From assembly GCA_903874895.1 (NCBI GenBank), contig CAIQUG010000063.1, positions 1-38,274 on the forward strand: a stretch of 38,274 nucleotides of DNA, in the 5' to 3' direction. Below are positions 26,947-38,274 of the stretch, one piece after another. A program made the position numbers and the translations under genes. A model generated the notes under the pieces. That model was not told where the DNA came from, did not search any database, and saw nothing but the letters and a program-made list of their open reading frames with translations. How positions within the stretch are numbered: position 1 is the first letter of the stretch; every line of letters starts with the position of its first letter. The stretch is from an uncultured Caulobacterales bacterium (GTDB lineage: Bacteria > Pseudomonadota > Alphaproteobacteria > Caulobacterales > Caulobacteraceae).

Positions 26947-28311
26947 TCAGGCTGCCCTGGCGATGACCAGGTTTCGGCCCTTGGCCTTGGCGTCATAGAC
27001 GGCATCGTCCGCGCGCTTCAGCAGGTCCTGGGCCGTGTCCGCGGCGTCAAGGGTTGCGGCCACGCCCACCGAGATCGTCACGCTGAGAGGATCGTCGACC
27101 CCCGCCACATGGAACGGCGACCCGGCCACATGGCGGCGCAGGCGCTCGGCGATGGCTTCGGCCTCACCCAGCGCCGTGTCCGGCATGATCACCACGAACT
27201 CCTCACCGCCATAGCGGCAGGCCAGGTCAATGGCCCGGACATTGGTCGCCAGCCGGATGGCGAATTCCCGCAGGACCTCGTCCCCGACGGCATGACCGAA
27301 GCTGTCATTGATCCGCTTGAAGTGGTCGATATCCACCAGAAGCGCCGAAACCGGCTCCCCCCCGTGGGTGGCCCGCCGCACGAGGGCCGTCAGCTGTCCG
27401 GACATGTAGCGGCGATTGTGCAGTCCGGTCAGCGGATCGGTCACTGCGAGCTCGAGGCTCTGGTCCAGATTGTTCCGCAGGAAATCGTAATAGCGCTTCT
27501 GGCGGATCAGGGTTCGCACCCGGGCGGCGAGCTCTTCCGGGTCCACAGGCCGGGTCAGGACGTCATTCACCCCGAGCTCCAGCGCCTTCACCATCCGGGC
27601 CCGGTCGCTGGCCTCGACGATGGCGATGATCGGCAGATGGCGCGTGGCTTCGTCCGACCGGATCTGGGCGGCGAGCCGGAGGGCGTCATGGGAGCGGGAT
27701 GCCGCATTGATCACCAGCAGGTCGGCCCGCCCCCGCGCAGCCGGCAGGGCCTGGTCCACATTCCGCTCCACGACGATCCGGTGGTCCTGCGACAGTTCCT
27801 GCTCGATGACGCGAATCTGTTCGTCGTTGTCGTCGGCAATCAGGATCAGACCGCCACCGCCGGACATCCGCGCGGCGGCCCCCTCGATCACGCCCATGCG
27901 CCGGCCGGATGCCTCCCGGTGGCGAAGCTCGTCGATCACAAGCTTCAGACGCACCAGGCTGCGGACCCGGGCGAACAGGGCCAGATCGTCGATCGGCTTC
28001 GTCAGGAAGTCATCCGCGCCGGCCTCGAGCCCGCTCAACCGGTCGCGACGCCCGTCGAGGGCCGTGACCAGGACGACGGGAATGTGGCGAGTCGCCGCAT
28101 CGGCCTTCAGCCTGCGACAGACCTCCAGCCCGTCCATGCCGGGCATCATCACGTCCAGCAGGATGATGTCCGGGGCCTGCTCGGCCGCCATGACCAGCGC
28201 CGACGGACCATCCGGTGCCGTCAGGACATCATAGTACTCTGCCGACAGTTTCGCCTCGAGGAGGCGGACATTGGCCTCAGCGTCATCGACAACGAGGATC
28301 CGCGCAGTCAT
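26947..28311 (-). CDS. pleD: Response regulator diguanylate cyclase PleD
   Basis: The 454-residue protein makes cyclic di-GMP at the differentiating cell pole and drives the motile-to-stalked switch in Caulobacter. REC1 has the phosphoacceptor Asp-53 (ILLDVMMPGMDG) and Lys in LTKP. REC2 (about 152-270) lacks the Asp and serves dimerisation. The GGDEF domain has the active site GGEEF at 368-372 and the allosteric product-binding RxxD at 359-362 (RAID), the same numbering as the studied Caulobacter PleD. It should therefore be active and feedback-inhibited. It starts 7 nt after divK, with AGGAG spanning the divK stop. Confidence 0.97.
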   Translation of the reverse strand: MTARILVVDDAEANVRLLEAKLSAEYYDVLTAPDGPSALVMAAEQAPDIILLDVMMPGMDGLEVCRRLKADAATRHIPVVLVTALDGRRDRLSGLEAGADDFLTKPIDDLALFARVRSLVRLKLVIDELRHREASGRRMGVIEGAAARMSGGGGLILIADDNDEQIRVIEQELSQDHRIVVERNVDQALPAARGRADLLVINAASRSHDALRLAAQIRSDEATRHLPIIAIVEASDRARMVKALELGVNDVLTRPVDPEELAARVRTLIRQKRYYDFLRNNLDQSLELAVTDPLTGLHNRRYMSGQLTALVRRATHGGEPVSALLVDIDHFKRINDSFGHAVGDEVLREFAIRLATNVRAIDLACRYGGEEFVVIMPDTALGEAEAIAERLRRHVAGSPFHVAGVDDPLSVTISVGVAATLDAADTAQDLLKRADDAVYDAKAKGRNLVIARAA

Positions 28312-28318
28312 GCCGCTC

Positions 28319-28684
28319 CTATCCCAGAAACCGACGAACCGTATCGAGAAAATAGGTGACCGAGATGGGCTTCGAGATATAGGCCTCGCAGCCTCCCTCG
28401 CGAATCCGCTCCTCGTCGCCCTTCATGGCAAAGGCGGTGACGGCAATCACGGGGATGTGGGACAGCTCGTCGTCCTCCTTCAGCCACTTGGTCACCTCAA
28501 GCCCCGAGATCTCCGGCAGCTGGATGTCCATGAGGATCAGATCGGGACGATGATTTCGCGCCAGGGCAAGCGCCTGCAGTCCCTCCCGGGTCTGCAGCGT
28601 CTCGTACCCCTGGGCATCGAGCAGATCATGAAACAGCTTCATGTTCAGCTCGTTATCCTCGACGATGAGGACTTTCTTGGTCAT
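28319..28684 (-). CDS. divK: Single-domain response regulator DivK
   Basis: The 121-residue receiver domain has no output domain. In Caulobacter it is phosphorylated by DivJ, dephosphorylated by PleC, and controls the CckA-CtrA pathway through DivL. The acidic pocket VEDNE, the phosphoacceptor Asp-53 ([13 protein letters not shown]) and Lys in YISKP are present, with [13 protein letters not shown] as in known DivK. The start [11 protein letters not shown] was chosen; 26 further open codons upstream do not look like receiver sequence. It is first in divK-pleD. A CtrA-like box lies 83 bp upstream. Confidence 0.96.
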
Positions 28685-28766
28685 AATCCGATCACGCTCA
28701 CCCTCGCCCGGCGATCCGCAGTCCACGGTCTCCAGCGCAGTTGAACACGGTGTTACACGCATATCC

Positions 28767-30176: not shown

Positions 30177-31675
<1,499 letters not shown>

Positions 31676-31676
<1 letters not shown>

Positions 31677-32980
31677 TGCGCATCCTCGGACAGACCCTGA
31701 TGGCGGCAGCGCTGGCCACGACGCTTGTCAGCGGCCCCTCGCGGGCTGACACGATTGCCGTCACCCACGCGCACATCCACACCATGGGCAAGGGCGGCGA
31801 GATCGCCTCCGGCGTCGTGCTGATCGACAACGGCCGGATCACAGCGGTGGGCCGCGATGTTGCCATCCCCGCCGGGGCCCGAATCATCGACGCCAAGGGC
31901 CGGATCGTCACGCCGGGCCTCATCGTCACCGGGTCGAGTGTCGGCGCGGAGGAAATCGAGGGGGTGGAACCCACGGTCAATTCGGGTGTCGAGGGCGGGC
32001 CTCTGAGCGCCGGATTCGACATCCAGTACAGCCTCAATCCGGACTCCACCGTTTTGCCCATCGAACGGTTGACGGGGGCGACCTCGGCCCTGGTGTCACC
32101 TATGTTCCGCGGGCGCCGGGGTGATACGCGGGAGACCTTGTTCGCGGGTCAGGCCGCCGCGATCAGCCTGGCGGAGGGCCCTGACATCCTCCTCCGCGCC
32201 CACGTGGCCATGGGTGTGGACGCCGGCGACCGGGGCGCCGGTCGGGCGGGAGGTGCCCGCGGAGCCCTGATTCCCGAACTGCATGGCCTGCTCGCCGAAG
32301 CGCGGGCCTACCACCGGAGCCGGGCGGCCTATGATCAGAACAAGGTCCAGCCTTTCGCCCTGCGGCGAGAGGATCTGGAAGCCCTCGGGGCCGTGATCGA
32401 CGGACGCGAACCTCTGCTGGTGGAGGTGCATCGCGCCTCCGACATACGCCAGATCCTGGCCTTCGGTCGCGCCGAGAAGGTCCGGCTGGTTCTGTCCGGG
32501 GTGGAGGAAGGCTGGCGCGTCGCCGCAGAGCTCGCAGCGACCCAGACCCCGGTGATGCTCGACAGCGACGAGGACCTTCCGGTCTCGTTCGAGAAGCTCG
32601 CCTCCACCCTGGAAAATGCCGCCCGACTGACGGCGGCGGGGGTTTCGGTCTCGATCCACGGACCCGGTCTCTCGACCGGTGGCAAGGCCGTGCGCCTGGC
32701 CGCCGGGCGCGCCGTCGGGCACGGCCTGCCCTGGTCCGCCGGACTGGCTGCCGTGACCATCAATCCCGCCCGCGCCCTCGGTCTTGCCGATACGGTGGGG
32801 TCACTGGAACCCGGCAAATCCGCCGATCTGGTGGTCTGGAGCGGCGATCCGCTGGACACCAGCGGCGCACCGGATGTCGTGATCATCAAGGGCCGCGAAC
32901 AGTCCGGACGATCCCGCCAGCTGGACCTGCGGGACCGCTACCTCAAGGCGGCCGATGGCCTGCCGCCGCCCTATCACTGA
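31676..32980 (+). CDS. Exported amidohydrolase-like protein lacking the metal-binding motif
   Basis: The 434-residue protein has a Sec signal peptide (about 1-24, ending GPSRA) and the composite beta-domain plus barrel plan of amidohydrolases: VLIDNGRITAVGRDV and RIVTPGLI near the N-terminus, INPARALGLADTVGSLEPGKSADLVVWSGDP at the end. Where the family has PGLIDxHxH this protein has PGLIVTGSSVG, and the later metal His/Asp are not evident. It is probably non-catalytic or uses different chemistry. Its ATG overlaps the preceding stop (TGATG), with GGGAGG just upstream. A structural partnership with the preceding lipoprotein is inferred. Confidence 0.85.
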
Positions 32981-33036: not shown

Positions 33037-33084
33037 CTGCAAAGGCGCAGACTGTCGGCTTGAACCCGGCAAAAGGTGCCTAGC

Positions 33085-35922
33085 GTGACGGTTTCCTTCG
33101 ACCCAACCCTGCTGGTGAGCTGGTACAGCGCTCGCGCAGGTGCGCCGGCGTCGGGGGCCTCGGCGGGCACGACCCCCTCGAATTCGACGGCGGCCTCCGC
33201 GCCCAAGCCGCCCTGGCAGACTGCGGCAACGCCCAAGGCCGGAACCCAGACCACGGACCAGAAGGCAGCGGCTGCGGCGGCGGCGGCAAATTCCGCTGCC
33301 AACAACATCCTGAACGGCCAGCCCTTGATCAATACCGCGGCGACCCGTCTGTCCGTCAGCGGCAAAGACGCAAAGGTCAACGCGGACTACAAGAACCTGT
33401 TCGCCCTCTACCAGGGCGTGACCGCACTCCAGTCGATCGCGACCCAGGCGGGCACCGCCTCGACAAGCCAGCTGACCACCTATCAGAAAGCCTTCAGCCA
33501 GGGGCTGGGTGAGCTTCAGACCTTTCTTTCCACGTCGCCGTTCGCACGCTTCTCCCTGGCCCTCGGGGCTGTCAGCTCCAAGGACACCTCCGCCGCCGTC
33601 ACGCCGTCCGAGACCGACCTCTATCAGGGACCGACCATCTACACCGGCGACCTTTCCGTCCCGCCGCCCTCCCTGTCCGGAACCGTGGCGTTTTCCGCCA
33701 GCTTCAAGCTGCCGAACGGATCGTCGGCGACGGTGAATTTCGACCTGAGCGAACTTGGTTCGACACCGCGGACCCTGCCGAACGTGGTCTCCTACCTCAA
33801 CAGCAAGCTCCAGGCTGCCGGCCTGAAGACGACCTTCCAGGACGTCCGGATTCCAGGGGTGGGAAAGACCGTCACGTCGGGCAAGTCCAGCTACACGCTG
33901 CCGGCCGGGGCGGACAGCTTCGCCCTCAAGATCGTGGGCTCTCCGGATGAGACCGTCACCTTCTCTGCGCCCACCACCAAGCCGGCCGTCTATGTGTCGC
34001 AGACGTCCGGCTCGACGACACCGACCCAGAGCTTTACCGCGACCAAGGTGGTCACGACACCGGCGGTCAATACCCAGGTCCTGACCGGCCTGACGGCGGA
34101 TCCGACCGCAGCCGCCGGGACATCCAGCAAGCTGTTCGGCCGCACGCTCGGCACCAACACCGCGGGAGCGGCCTATCAGGCCACGGGCCCTGACGGAGCC
34201 CTCTATGTGGTCAGCAACGATGCCGGCACCGGACCGACGGGCCAGGCCCTGCCCGGTCCGCAGAACGTTGTTCTGACCAAGTATGATTCCGCCGGGCAGG
34301 TCGTCTATACCCGGACCCTCGGCACCGCCGGCAGTGCGACGGCCTATTCGGTCGCAGTCTCACCCGACGGCAAGAGCGTCGCCGTGGCGGGCAGCATCAC
34401 CGGTGCCTTGAACGCCAACGACGGGACCGTGACGCCAGGGCAGTCCGACACCTTCGTGGCGACCTATGACGCCCAGTCGGGCGACCCGAACTGGGTGTCC
34501 CGGGTGGGAACCGGCGCCGGCGCGGACACGCCGACCGGCGTCGCTTTCGATGCCAACGGTGCCGTCTATGTCTCCGGCCAGACCTCCGCGGCCTTCTCCG
34601 GACAGACGCTGAAGGGATCACAGGACGGGTTCGTCCAGGCTTTCTCCTCCAAGGGCGTGGCGGGCACGCTGCAGGAATTCGGCGCGTCCGGGATCAACAG
34701 TACGGCAGGACTGACGGTCAGCGGGACGACCGTGGTGGTGGCCGGCGCCGAAGGCGGCCATGCGGTGCTCCGGAGCTTCGCCATCAGCGGAACGGACACC
34801 CTGACGGCGGGAACGGTCCGGGACCTCGGGGCCCTGAACGGGGGCAGCGTAGCCGGAATCAGCACGGCGGCGGACGGGTCCGTCGTGGTGGCCGGCTCGA
34901 CGCACAACGGAGCCCTCAGCGCAGGCGCGGTGACGACGGCCTATTCCGGCGGCAAGGAAGCCTTTGTGGCCAAGCTGTCGCCCAGCGGGGCGCCGAGCGG
35001 ATCCGACACCCTCGCCTATTATTCCGCCGGCGGAGACACCACGGCGACGACCGTGACGACAGCAAACGGCGTGGTCTATATCGCCGGACAGGTGGCTGGA
35101 CCGGCCGATGCGGCCAGCAACGGCCTGCCGTCCAATGAAGGGTTCGTCACCGCCATCGACCCGACCACGGGGCATGCGACATGGACCAGCAGCCTTACCG
35201 GTGACGCCGGGCAGGATCGGCCCAACAGCATTGCCGTCTCGGCCAACGGATCATCGGCTCTCAACCTGCTCGGGCTTCCCGCCCAGACCATCAACTATGC
35301 CCCCTCCACCTACCTCGTGGACAACAGCCCCCTGCAGGCGGGGGACAAGTTCAGCATCACCCTGGCCAACGGCTCCACCAGCACGGTCACCATTGACGCC
35401 AAGGAGACGCTGCAGACCCTGGCCGCCAAGATCAACACCGCGTCCCAGAACCAGCTGACGGCCACGGTCGGCATTGCCGTCAATGGCAGCAATCTGACCA
35501 TCAAGCCGACCAACAGCCGCCAGAAGGTGGTCCTGAACGCGGGGCCCGCCGATGCCGACGCCCTGGCGGCGCTGGGCATCAAACCGGGCGAACTGGCGGC
35601 CTCGGCCAGCACCTATGCCACCATCTCGAAGACCTCGAACCTGAAGGTCTCGCCCTATGCCCTGGGCCTGACGGGCAATCTGAACCTCGGCACGGCGGAC
35701 GACATCGCCAACGCCAAGAAGGAGCTGACGGCGGCCCAGGACGTGCTGAAGGTCATCTTCACGGACATGACCACCAAGCCGCTGCCGAAGTCGACGGGAT
35801 CGGGCAAGTCGGGCGGTGTGCCCGCCTATCTGACCGCCCAGATTGCCGACTACAAGACGGCCCTGTCCCGTCTGCAGGGCGCGGCGTCGACTCCGAACAC
35901 CACCCTGTCCCTGTTCGGCTGA
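33085..35922 (+). CDS. Large beta-propeller/flagellin-like protein, possible FlaEY-type flagellar regulator
   Basis: The 945-residue protein starts at a GTG (MTVSFDPTLLVSWY), with AAAGG 8 nt upstream; a GTG three codons earlier is possible. It has no Sec signal and no Cys was seen. After an Ala/Thr-rich N-terminus come about 250 residues of helix and strand. Residues of about 340-720 repeat a propeller-like unit (VVLTKYDSAGQVVYTRTLG, AVSPDGKSVAVAGS, VAFDANGAVYVSGQT). Residues of about 745-860 resemble flagellin/hook-associated IN domains: DKFSITLANGSTSTVTIDAKETLQTLAAKINTAS in segments. The layout recalls what I remember of the caulobacterial flagellin-regulating protein FlaEY, a recollection and not a checked match. 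It is convergent with the FkbH-like gene (12-bp gap). Confidence 0.7.
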   Translation: MTVSFDPTLLVSWYSARAGAPASGASAGTTPSNSTAASAPKPPWQTAATPKAGTQTTDQKAAAAAAAANSAANNILNGQPLINTAATRLSVSGKDAKVNADYKNLFALYQGVTALQSIATQAGTASTSQLTTYQKAFSQGLGELQTFLSTSPFARFSLALGAVSSKDTSAAVTPSETDLYQGPTIYTGDLSVPPPSLSGTVAFSASFKLPNGSSATVNFDLSELGSTPRTLPNVVSYLNSKLQAAGLKTTFQDVRIPGVGKTVTSGKSSYTLPAGADSFALKIVGSPDETVTFSAPTTKPAVYVSQTSGSTTPTQSFTATKVVTTPAVNTQVLTGLTADPTAAAGTSSKLFGRTLGTNTAGAAYQATGPDGALYVVSNDAGTGPTGQALPGPQNVVLTKYDSAGQVVYTRTLGTAGSATAYSVAVSPDGKSVAVAGSITGALNANDGTVTPGQSDTFVATYDAQSGDPNWVSRVGTGAGADTPTGVAFDANGAVYVSGQTSAAFSGQTLKGSQDGFVQAFSSKGVAGTLQEFGASGINSTAGLTVSGTTVVVAGAEGGHAVLRSFAISGTDTLTAGTVRDLGALNGGSVAGISTAADGSVVVAGSTHNGALSAGAVTTAYSGGKEAFVAKLSPSGAPSGSDTLAYYSAGGDTTATTVTTANGVVYIAGQVAGPADAASNGLPSNEGFVTAIDPTTGHATWTSSLTGDAGQDRPNSIAVSANGSSALNLLGLPAQTINYAPSTYLVDNSPLQAGDKFSITLANGSTSTVTIDAKETLQTLAAKINTASQNQLTATVGIAVNGSNLTIKPTNSRQKVVLNAGPADADALAALGIKPGELAASASTYATISKTSNLKVSPYALGLTGNLNLGTADDIANAKKELTAAQDVLKVIFTDMTTKPLPKSTGSGKSGGVPAYLTAQIADYKTALSRLQGAASTPNTTLSLFG

Positions 35923-35934
35923 CGAACCCCGCCC

Positions 35935-38013
35935 TCAGCCTGCGCGCCAGACCCCGTCGTCCTGCAGGGTGAAACCATTGTCCCGATAGATGTTCCGGGC
36001 GGGGAAGTTCCGTTCTCTCTCGACGATCCGCCCTCCGAGACGCACGCCCCGGGCCGCCGTGGCCTGCACGGCGAAGGCGAGGAACCGGTGCTCGATATCC
36101 ATGCCCAGCGCCCGGCAGCTGACGGCGAAGGCGACAATCTCGTCCCCGAGGACGACAATGGCCCCGACCAACCCGTGATCCCCGAACCGGTCGGACGCCC
36201 GGGCCACGAACACCGACGCGTCCGACATTTCCAGCCGCCGTCCCAGCTCTGCCGCCGAGATCTGGAGACCCGTGGTGGTGAACTGCGTCGTCCTCTGCAG
36301 CAGTTCCGCCACCCGGGTGGTGTCGTCCCCCGGCGCGAGGGCGCGGCACTCCAGTCGGATCCCCAGGGAGGCGATGAAGGCATCCCGATCGTCGAAGCTG
36401 TCCCGGCTGCGTCCCCGCGCAAGGGTGGCCCGGGTCATCGCCGTGCGCTCCAGGCTGTCCGCCGTCACCAGAGGCGGCTGAAGCCGTGGATCGGTGAGCA
36501 GCCGTCGCCGCAGTCCGGCCAGGTCCTCGCCCAGCAGGTCAATCTCCGGCAACGCCTGTCGAATGCGTTCCCGCTCCACGGGATTGTCGTCGATGAACAG
36601 GAAAGCCGATGGGGCAAAGCCGAGTTCGTCGGCGATCGCCCGGATGTTCTGCGCCTTGTCGGTCCAGTTGATCCGGTAGGTAACAAAGTCATCAAGGGTC
36701 AGCAGACGGTCCCGGGGATAATGGTCGGGATAGGTCCACAGGGCGCGGACGGTCTGCTCGTCATTCTTGCTGACACAGGCCAGCAGGATCCCCCGCCGCT
36801 TGAGGCACAACAGGGCTTCGTGCAGACCGAAATAGAGTCCGATGAACGAAAACGGGCTGGAGACCTCCGCACTCCAGGCAAAGGGCGCACCGGTTTCGGC
36901 AAGGACCCCCGGCCAAAGGACGCCATCGAGGTCCACGATCACGCACTTTCGGGCCTCGTGCCGCGTCACCGACTGGATCGCATCCAGGTGCGCCGATGCC
37001 AGTACCCGTTCCCGCAGATAGGGTTCGCCATCGAGGGACTCCGACAGGCGGGTCAGATCCGGCGGCAGGCCGTGAACGGCCACCTTCTCCGCCTCGATGC
37101 GCTGCAAGAGCCAGCCCGGCGAACCGAAATGGGTAAACCCCACCTCCCCGTCGTCCAGAAGACGGTCCTGCCCGGCCCCAGCGAGGGCCGCGGCCACGTC
37201 GACCACGTGGACGTCGGCATAGGTCTCGGCCAGCTCGGCCAGGGCGATATTGGCCAGACGAAACCGGTTGCGGTGTCCCAGCAATCCCCGCTCGGCAAAG
37301 CCCAGGGGCTGCACGGTGGGTTCAGGCAGATTGTCGAGGAGGATGGGCGCGGAGGTCACAGCCCGGAGCTGTTCGATCAGGTGACGGGCGGACTGGAGGA
37401 ACAGCCCGGTGGGCGGCTCACCGGTGGCCGGGTCCACCGGATCCATGATGGCGTGGCGGGCCCGCAGCGCACCGACCAGTACCAGGTCATGGCGGCGATC
37501 GACGGCCATGGCGATGTCGTCGGGAAAGCTCGCCGCGATGTGCAGATCCAGACCGCGACGCCGTCCCTCCTGCCGCAGGAAGTCCTGTTCCATCTGGATG
37601 TCGCAATCGCCGAACAGCAGAAGATCCAGCCTGCGCCCCCCGGCGGACACGCCCTCCATGGTGGCGGCCTCGGTCACGGTCCAGTAGTCCTCGCCCCCGA
37701 TGCGCCTTGCCCGGCGACGGGCGTCCAGAGCCGCGGCCGGATCGCGCCCATGGGTCGCACCCAGATCCGCCGACAGGGCCGAGAGTTCGGCCTCCGGGGT
37801 CAGGTGGGTCAGCACCTCCCGTTCCACGAGGGCGTTCAGCAGGACCTCCCCCAGGCTCTTCTCGAACAGGGGCTGTGGCACCTGGAACAGCTCGATCACC
37901 TGGGCGAGGTCGGCATCCACCACCCAGCGCATCTGATTGACGGCATGGAGCACCAGCACCCGTCCGTCTCCGACCGGGGCCAGATGGATGAAGCGGGACT
38001 TGCGCAGCGGCAT
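35935..38013 (-). CDS. FkbH-like HAD-IIIC/GNAT protein with a PqqD/RRE-like N-terminal domain
   Basis: The 692-residue protein has four regions. Residues 1-85 (SRFIHLAPVGDGRVLVLHAV, DADLAQVIELF, ALVEREVLTHLTPEAEL) resemble the PqqD-like peptide-binding domain at the start of many radical-SAM/SPASM maturases. Residues of about 128-340 are SGNH-hydrolase-like (LLLFGDCDIQ). Residues of about 355-500 are a HAD-IIIC phosphatase with Asp-361/Asp-363 (DLDGVLWPG), CVSKND and FIDDNPVERE. The FkbH-typical QRTTQFTTTG follows, then a GNAT acyltransferase-like end. FkbH proteins load glyceryl groups from 1,3-bisphosphoglycerate on carrier proteins; the substrate here is unknown. Its ATG follows a 2OG-oxygenase gene by 47 bp on the same strand. 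Confidence 0.82.
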   Translation of the reverse strand: MPLRKSRFIHLAPVGDGRVLVLHAVNQMRWVVDADLAQVIELFQVPQPLFEKSLGEVLLNALVEREVLTHLTPEAELSALSADLGATHGRDPAAALDARRRARRIGGEDYWTVTEAATMEGVSAGGRRLDLLLFGDCDIQMEQDFLRQEGRRRGLDLHIAASFPDDIAMAVDRRHDLVLVGALRARHAIMDPVDPATGEPPTGLFLQSARHLIEQLRAVTSAPILLDNLPEPTVQPLGFAERGLLGHRNRFRLANIALAELAETYADVHVVDVAAALAGAGQDRLLDDGEVGFTHFGSPGWLLQRIEAEKVAVHGLPPDLTRLSESLDGEPYLRERVLASAHLDAIQSVTRHEARKCVIVDLDGVLWPGVLAETGAPFAWSAEVSSPFSFIGLYFGLHEALLCLKRRGILLACVSKNDEQTVRALWTYPDHYPRDRLLTLDDFVTYRINWTDKAQNIRAIADELGFAPSAFLFIDDNPVERERIRQALPEIDLLGEDLAGLRRRLLTDPRLQPPLVTADSLERTAMTRATLARGRSRDSFDDRDAFIASLGIRLECRALAPGDDTTRVAELLQRTTQFTTTGLQISAAELGRRLEMSDASVFVARASDRFGDHGLVGAIVVLGDEIVAFAVSCRALGMDIEHRFLAFAVQATAARGVRLGGRIVERERNFPARNIYRDNGFTLQDDGVWRAG

Positions 38014-38060: not shown

Positions 38061-38274
38061 TCATGGCGCCGCGAACCGGCGGCCGGCGGCGGCTTCGCCC
38101 TCCACCCGACCGGCATTGGCGGCCCGCACCCGGGCCCCGTCGGCGTCATAGAGAAAAGGCACGAGGGTGAACCTTTGACCCACTGTCACGGGGGTCACCT
38201 CATGCAACAGGCCGCAGGCGAAGACAGCCGCACCGCCCGTGGGGGGACGAAAGGTCTGGCGACTGAACTCGGGG
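38061..38274 (-). CDS. 2-oxoglutarate/Fe(II)-dependent oxygenase, C-terminal part only
   Basis: The last 70 residues before a TGA stop are in the window. The order TFRPPTGGAAVFACGLLHEVTPVTVGQRFTLVPFLY (read in segments) is the C-terminal half of a prolyl-4-hydroxylase-type double-stranded beta-helix. His in LLHEV would be the distal iron ligand, and the Arg in GQRFTLV would bind 2-oxoglutarate. The proximal HxD motif lies outside the window. Such enzymes hydroxylate protein side chains or small molecules. It is upstream of and co-directional with the FkbH-like gene, so a shared modification pathway is plausible but inferred. Confidence 0.85.
   Translation of the reverse strand, partial: PEFSRQTFRPPTGGAAVFACGLLHEVTPVTVGQRFTLVPFLYDADGARVRAANAGRVEGEAAAGRRFAAP

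Follow-up and report, generated by a model that had tools for sequence, protein, structure and literature searches.

The window analysed here is the whole stretch of 38,274 bases, which corresponds to bases 1-38274 of contig C63 in a draft assembly of 266 contigs (G000); the nearest named relatives are uncultured Caulobacterales metagenome-assembled genomes and Phenylobacterium. Close to its right-hand end, a complete gene on the minus strand encodes an FkbH-family enzyme that begins with a domain predicted to have the fold of a recognition element (RRE) of ribosomally synthesized and post-translationally modified peptides (RiPPs). A known role of FkbH enzymes is the supply of three-carbon acyl units to carrier proteins. 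The combination of FkbH and RRE is a new one, and new RRE fusions as a kind have already been reported. The gene and its domains are:

35935-38013, minus strand: RRE-SGNH-HAD-GNAT FkbH-family enzyme, 692 aa, whole gene with ATG start and TGA stop.
37774-38013, minus strand: RRE (PqqD-fold) domain, residues 1-80 (AlphaFold2, Foldseek, VIA-align and hhalign to PqqD; none by Pfam).
36955-37635, minus strand: SGNH/GDSL-like domain, residues 127-353 (VIA-align Z about 15 to SGNH/GDSL-type esterases).
36475-36954, minus strand: HAD-IIIC domain, residues 354-513 (TIGR01686/TIGR01681).
35938-36363, minus strand: GNAT domain, residues 551-692 (VIA-align Z 13-15 to GNATs, including RimI, Ard1 and Naa50).

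AlphaFold2 predicts three strands (residues 9-15, 18-23 and 29-33) followed by three helices (34-42, 48-51 and 56-64) at the N-terminus. The domain model, made from 26 sequences, has block confidence values (predicted local distance difference test, pLDDT) of 85-94 over residues 1-80, and the full-length model shows the same order of elements (pLDDT 82.8, predicted template modelling score 0.70); the two were built on overlapping alignments. The order strand-strand-strand-helix-helix-helix, by which RREs are recognised (PMC12710340), is thus present in both models. All of the top 12 Foldseek matches are RRE proteins, among them TigE (probability 1.00, E 2.9e-3), TbiB1, LynD and TruD. When VIA-align was run on the best 1000 Foldseek matches, 33 entries were returned, comprising 27 RiPP or nonribosomal peptide synthetase (NRPS) enzymes that we take, partly from general knowledge, to carry an RRE or RRE-like domain, five ribosomal oxygenases (MINA53, YcfD-like) and one ribosome. 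TigE stood out with Z 9.9 (root-mean-square deviation 3.7, 110 aligned), and the other RiPP/NRPS entries scored Z 3.3-5.8 (TbiB1 and MccB 5.7, McbB and NisB 5.3), values that, being under 8, may reflect a common arrangement. TigE also ranks first by sequence when solved chains are searched with hmmsearch, at a non-significant E of 0.16. In a profile-profile comparison with hhalign, the RRE profile matched PqqD (a profile of 33 PqqD-family domains collected with PF05402 from alphaproteobacterial genomes) at 86.5% probability and a score of 32.2, compared with a maximum of 16.97 among 40 column shuffles and 9.91 for the reversed profile.

No Pfam model matches residues 1-116, and PF05402 (PqqD) has no match in the N-termini of 26 subfamily members (0/26) nor in the window's genome; the domain is therefore not filed under PF05402. 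That model is reported to retrieve RREs incompletely (PMC7470986), and it was dropped as an RRE detector in favour of the modelled fold and the profile. The earlier note had read the first 85 or so residues as a PqqD/RRE-like domain, to be given up if a structure model lacked the three-strand/three-helix fold or if a profile search returned FkbH hits alone. The fold is present and hhalign reaches PqqD, so its proposal is borne out, even though PF05402 itself gives no match. The RRE fold of residues 1-80 is established by model, not by experiment.

The same matches could arise from a generic winged-helix resemblance. Foldseek gave about 75% false RRE calls for small domains in one survey (PMC12710340), its best E here is modest, the matches below rank 12 are mostly unrelated, and stray weak MarR matches occur in 4 of 26 single members (best E 0.021). 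Weighing the other way are the required order of strands and helices at high confidence in the models, the fact that the leading 12 matches are RRE proteins and not generic winged helices, and the independent profile match to PqqD. On Foldseek, VIA-align and the PqqD profile, this explanation was rejected as very improbable.

In architecture, the domain is like the RREs of TigE, TbiB1, LynD and MccB, with three strands then three helices in about 80 residues, N-terminal to the catalytic body. Unlike known RREs, it is fused to FkbH and not to a radical SAM enzyme, cyclodehydratase, dehydratase or ThiF, it has no PF05402 match, and no precursor was found beside it. The RRE-Finder work reports RREs on glycosyltransferases, carbamoyltransferases, Memo-like and DUF59 proteins (PMC7470986, PMC12710340), and the present case resembles the fusions described there (2020, 2025) in placing an RRE on an enzyme type not earlier known to carry one. 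The main texts of the two papers make no mention of FkbH, and a literature search returned no paper on FkbH with an RRE and, by title, none on FkbH with RiPPs.

The RRE is present in all 39 distinct loci of the subfamily, which were selected by a match over 550 of the 692 residues, so that a member without the RRE would have qualified. Among the matches listed in 299 genomes of the family, 29/29 at E<=1e-100 start at query residue 1-3, and no RRE-less subfamily member was found. Serine 6 and histidine 10 are invariant (39/39), and R18, L20, R29, F43 and L62 are kept in 38/39. The first ~85 residues are unlike the starts of other FkbH proteins, as the earlier note had claimed for classical members. 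An N-terminal hidden Markov model (HMM) run over 17,034 stop-to-stop frames (>=50 aa) from all loci gave 67 subfamily matches at E<=1e-6, near-copies included, and up to E 1 its sole match outside the subfamily was a deltaproteobacterial FkbH (L049, E 0.0048). Against 75 other FkbH proteins (>=480 aa, some near-copies, L049 excluded), the RRE profile reached a best E of only 0.91. As for other proteins, a search of 100 relatives with the A3 profile gave 17 matches below E 0.01, all of them RRE-FkbH genes (next best E 0.028), and in 398 genomes across the phylum at least two were positive with the RRE profile, both of the window's genus.

Members of the subfamily share at least ~51% identity over their full length, and other FkbH proteins at most 40%, in alignments that cover only part of the length and chiefly the catalytic half. 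The distribution is rare and patchy: the subfamily occurs in at least 4 of 385 genomes across the class and at least 19 of 299 in the family (own genome included). The window's genome carries a second FkbH copy on contig C75, 53% identical. The deltaproteobacterial gene (L049:7971-10190) encodes an FkbH that is 30% identical over the full length and has a diverged RRE-like N-terminus. Because of this N-terminus, the fusion may, to judge from sequence, be older than the alphaproteobacterial group. The L049 neighbours are HtrA-like, GlcD-like and others, none of them RiPP-like.

The catalytic body conforms to the FkbH family. NCBIfam TIGR01686 matches residues 354-685 with 215.9 bits (cut-off 146.65), which confirms the HAD-IIIC/GNAT assignment made earlier, and residues 351-513 align to HAD phosphatases with a VIA-align Z of about 13.5. 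The closest solved body is 3slr (BF1531, an FkbH-like protein of Bacteroides), with Z 18.4 over residues 113-516. Throughout the 39 loci, C137, D288 and H295 of the SGNH-like domain, D361, D363, S415, K453, D475 and D476 of the HAD domain, and T575, T576, Q577, D608, G614, S632, C633 and R634 of the GNAT region are invariant, the HAD/GNAT signature positions having been picked from general knowledge together with the alignment. Cys137 stands at what we take to be the serine position of the SGNH motif, and we infer that it is the nucleophile of that domain; residues 289-295, which include H295, fall under pLDDT 50 in the full-length model. Compared by sequence, the enzyme is like the FkbH glyceryl/acyl transferases (TIGR01686) in its HAD-IIIC and GNAT domains, where all positions examined are kept, and unlike other FkbH proteins in its extra N-terminal RRE, its GDC/GEC cysteine motif in the SGNH-like domain and its pairing with a 2-oxoglutarate (2OG) oxygenase. 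Many of the best-scoring other FkbH proteins have a GSC motif at the Cys137 place, and there the RRE profile finds nothing; sister FkbH genes with this motif have mixed surroundings (6 loci, by eye).

The partner gene lies directly upstream, as the earlier note had seen:

38061-38273, minus strand: peroxiredoxin-like/2OG Fe(II) oxygenase, C-terminal 70 residues, remainder on contig C248.

The FkbH start is 47 bases past the oxygenase stop, and the oxygenase gene runs off the contig. Contig C248 of the same genome overlaps the window end by exactly 141 bases and holds the rest of the oxygenase, with a resistance-nodulation-division (RND) pump gene before it. The joined gene order is that of locus L031, where the FkbH is 90% identical to the window's and the neighbours by Pfam are OEP, HlyD, ACR_tran and the peroxiredoxin-like/2OG oxygenase. 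PF13640 scores weakly on the window fragment (18.2 bits) and well on the L031 orthologue (43.9 bits) against a cut-off of 27.

A 2OG oxygenase gene is found within 2.5 kb of FkbH in 31 of the 39 loci, 28 of these partners being of the peroxiredoxin-like/2OG type and three of the PKHD/PiuC type. The H-x-D, His and Arg site is kept in all 27 partners that reach it, the window's included; in the remaining one of the 28 (L040), the contig includes no more than the N-terminal part. A cysteine occupies the peroxiredoxin place in 5/28, again including the window's, in a part where the alignment is weak. The three PKHD-type partners are stand-alone enzymes like YbiX/PiuC (NF003974; the one scanned scored 189 bits, cut-off 143), unlike the window's partner, which is a peroxiredoxin-like/2OG fusion and whose L031 orthologue reaches at most 38 bits and stays under every PKHD cut-off. 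Neighbouring genes of L145, L146 and L149 were assigned by tblastn. In L134 (8666-9628) and L142 (7191-8159), an alpha/beta-hydrolase-like (esterase) gene of ~320 aa, identified by eye, sits between the oxygenase and FkbH.

When 53 oxygenases were placed on a tree, 27 of them FkbH-linked and 26 unlinked (L040 and the PKHD type were left out), the linked sequences fell into clades of 17 and 4 rows and, amid unlinked ones, a clade of 5 rows plus L144. The linkage label needs three changes, at least two of them forced by supported branches, compared with a shuffled mean of 17.9 (0/500 as low). Since linked oxygenases fall in separate clades and the distant PKHD type occurs as well, the pairing of FkbH with a 2OG oxygenase seems to have arisen more than once; an ancient linkage with later loss is a possible alternative. 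Pairwise distances among the FkbH proteins are correlated with those among their partners (28 pairs, r 0.79, 0/5000 permutations). The unlinked copies share no common neighbour theme, being near genes for glyoxalase, ferritin, TauD, glutamate synthase, TrcR and others (Pfam), or RND-type genes (BLAST cluster).

Tetratricopeptide repeat (TPR) proteins stand beside the FkbH/oxygenase pair in 4/39 loci (L036, L041, L139, L144), some with a weak RimK/ATP-grasp-like C-terminus, and might be a further modification enzyme, not a general one. No RRE was detected in the partner oxygenase. The RRE could conceivably dock one of these partner proteins, the 2OG oxygenase or the TPR/ATP-grasp protein, in place of a substrate, and the tight gene pairing, the co-divergence of the pair and the TPR proteins would agree with that. 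The partners are of different families, so that a shared docking tail (for which no search was made) would have had to arise repeatedly, and we think such docking improbable.

The reading that we prefer, at close to even odds (a probability of roughly 0.48), is that a ribosomal peptide or protein encoded elsewhere docks on the RRE, is hydroxylated by the oxygenase and is acylated by FkbH. The N-terminal domain would bind the peptide, or the tail of the protein, as an extra strand of its sheet, and the partner 2OG oxygenase would hydroxylate the held substrate. The FkbH body would then take an acyl group and load it via the HAD centre, and the GNAT domain would pass it to the substrate, perhaps via Cys137 of the SGNH-like domain. 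By analogy with FkbH/OzmB types, which deliver to a carrier protein, the acyl group would be glyceryl from 1,3-bisphosphoglycerate. The computations show the modelled RRE fold, the four domains, the kept HAD, GNAT, SGNH and oxygenase positions and the conserved pairing; we infer that a peptide or protein is bound, in what sequence the reactions run, which acyl group is used and what the substrate is. If correct, the RRE moves FkbH acyl chemistry to ribosomal peptides or proteins, and the RRE-FkbH gene with its 2OG oxygenase becomes a new handle with which to trace a modification pathway not yet described. Both genes are short enough to be expressed and tested directly, and the case touches on whether an RRE-like domain on an unusual enzyme still docks a peptide or is a relic.

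The presence of an RRE does not by itself imply a RiPP: RRE-like domains are reported on JmjC proteins (PMC12710340), and the entries matched by VIA-align include ribosomal oxygenases (MINA53, YcfD-like) that act, by their titles, on ribosomal proteins. The substrate could then be a full-size cellular protein that is hydroxylated and given a glyceryl or acyl group outside any RiPP pathway, with the FlaEY-like protein described below, or flagellin, as a candidate. We consider this variant distinctly improbable.

Several observations weigh against docking of a ribosomal substrate. In an all-vs-all BLAST (E 0.01) of small open reading frames (ORFs), taken as six-frame segments of >=22 aa outside called genes of >=180 aa in ~6 kb around FkbH at the 39 loci, no precursor was found among 158 families, the widest of which occurs in 7/39 loci; very short or fast-changing precursors could evade BLAST, and false called genes might mask a small ORF. 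The 46 families viewed (the 14 widest and 32 others) were, by eye, dispersed repeats or pieces of ordinary syntenic genes, such as a gamma-carbonic-anhydrase-like gene, Tat-like genes and gene starts. The locus is not filed as a RiPP cluster because no precursor gene was found beside the enzymes, and the look at nearby small ORFs that the earlier note had advised brought none to light. Its broader idea of a peptide or protein substrate would agree with an RRE-type domain but stays hypothetical, in view of the small-ORF result and the relic precedent discussed below. The RRE and the linker are the least conserved parts of the protein, with mean pairwise identities of 0.46 and 0.47 over 39 loci, compared with 0.48 for the stretch 514-550, 0.51 for GNAT, 0.61 for the SGNH-like domain and 0.76 for HAD. 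Helix 3, which together with strand 3 would make up the peptide groove, is variable, the commonest residue being present in only 10-27 of 39 sequences at eight of the nine positions 56-64; this variability agrees with varied substrates, and with relaxed constraint too. No oxygenase lies nearby in 8/39 loci. Of these, L011 is at a contig edge, with no more than 357 bases upstream; the genomes of four others (L033, L135, L137 and L148, in G572, G611, G521 and G024) encode at another place a relative 56-59% identical to the window's partner; and L039, L046 and L147 have no oxygenase in the stretch examined. Species descent may partly account for the FkbH/partner distance correlation, and no Foldseek match to the RRE falls under E 0.001.

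These points bear most on the main rival, in which the RRE is a relic or a packing or dimer domain. The enzyme would then be an ordinary FkbH that puts its acyl group on a carrier protein or a small molecule, with that small molecule as the target of the oxygenase too. Carriers are what known FkbH proteins use, the RRE is among the less conserved parts of the enzyme and no precursor was found, all as such a relic would have it. The RND efflux genes upstream of the oxygenase at the window locus, and the efflux or glyoxalase genes by several unlinked copies, also suit a small molecule. A precedent comes from BmdC, an oxidase of the bacillamide NRPS, which is like RRE-FkbH in being a tailoring enzyme that starts with an RRE-like domain and for which a leader peptide is not known; unlike RRE-FkbH, it is an FMN oxidase fed by an NRPS carrier, and its domain is held to be a likely evolutionary relic (PMC8795117 and PMC8921679, for BmdC and for FlaEY below). 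On the other side, the RRE is retained in every one of the 39 loci, with S6 and H10 invariant and several residues nearly so, and the strongest family matches listed all begin at residue 1-3. No NRPS, polyketide synthase or carrier gene was recognised among the annotated neighbours, which are part of all neighbours and were not searched systematically for carriers. Taken together, we judge the relic or packing domain somewhat unlikely, and retain docking of a ribosomal peptide or protein as the preferred reading.

On the other side of FkbH is a convergent gene whose stop is 12 bases from the FkbH stop, the large flagellin-like protein of the earlier note:

33076-35922, plus strand: FlaEY-like protein, 948 aa, with an SBBP/beta-propeller-like centre (by BLAST cluster; association only).

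The protein clusters by BLAST with L218:11065-14037, which is encoded beside flagellin and FlaG genes in relatives; no family model gave the name FlaEY, which we presume to be appropriate. FlaEY is described as a possible regulator of flagellin genes. The gene adjoins FkbH in three of six genomes of the genus (G000, G003, G002). In G001 the two lie on different contigs, the G004 locus breaks off at a contig end, and in G005 the two are apart. Of the earlier proposal, the RRE-type domain on FkbH and the tie to a 2OG oxygenase are supported; the cell-surface part is weak, the FlaEY-like neighbour being seen beside FkbH in only 3/6 genus genomes.

In five further genomes (G572, G587, G608, G698, G011), a separate pair of genes of the partner's oxygenase family is found ~2-5 kb away from FlaEY, a nearness estimated to have a chance of a few per cent in each, there being several oxygenase copies per 4-Mb genome. 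Four of these arrangements share synteny near gyrA and ssb, and are therefore probably one event; no such nearness was seen in the remaining genomes of the 26 searched. The two FlaEY/oxygenase arrangements are suggestive, no more. At L209, L211, L213 and L218 (e.g., L218:6703-8864), a tandem pair of peroxiredoxin-like/2OG oxygenases occurs between gyrA and a DUF3617/ssb group, 2-5 kb away from FlaEY, near flagellin genes and with no FkbH beside it. In L212 (G653:C52:213000-232500), a gyrA-side oxygenase pair is ~6-7 kb from a cluster of an M16-like peptidase (by eye), oxygenase and FkbH, which makes three oxygenase copies within a single stretch.

Two amidohydrolase-type genes (30177-31676 and 31676-32980, plus strand; Pfam on the L037 member) are found downstream of the FlaEY-like region. 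Their BLAST cluster of 13 genes recurs in 8/39 FkbH loci, and in one genome it stands beside both the window-type FkbH and its paralogue (L149). Further to the left, on the minus strand, are two response-regulator genes (26947-28311 and 28319-28762), by eye PleD-like (receiver-receiver-GGDEF) and DivK-like.

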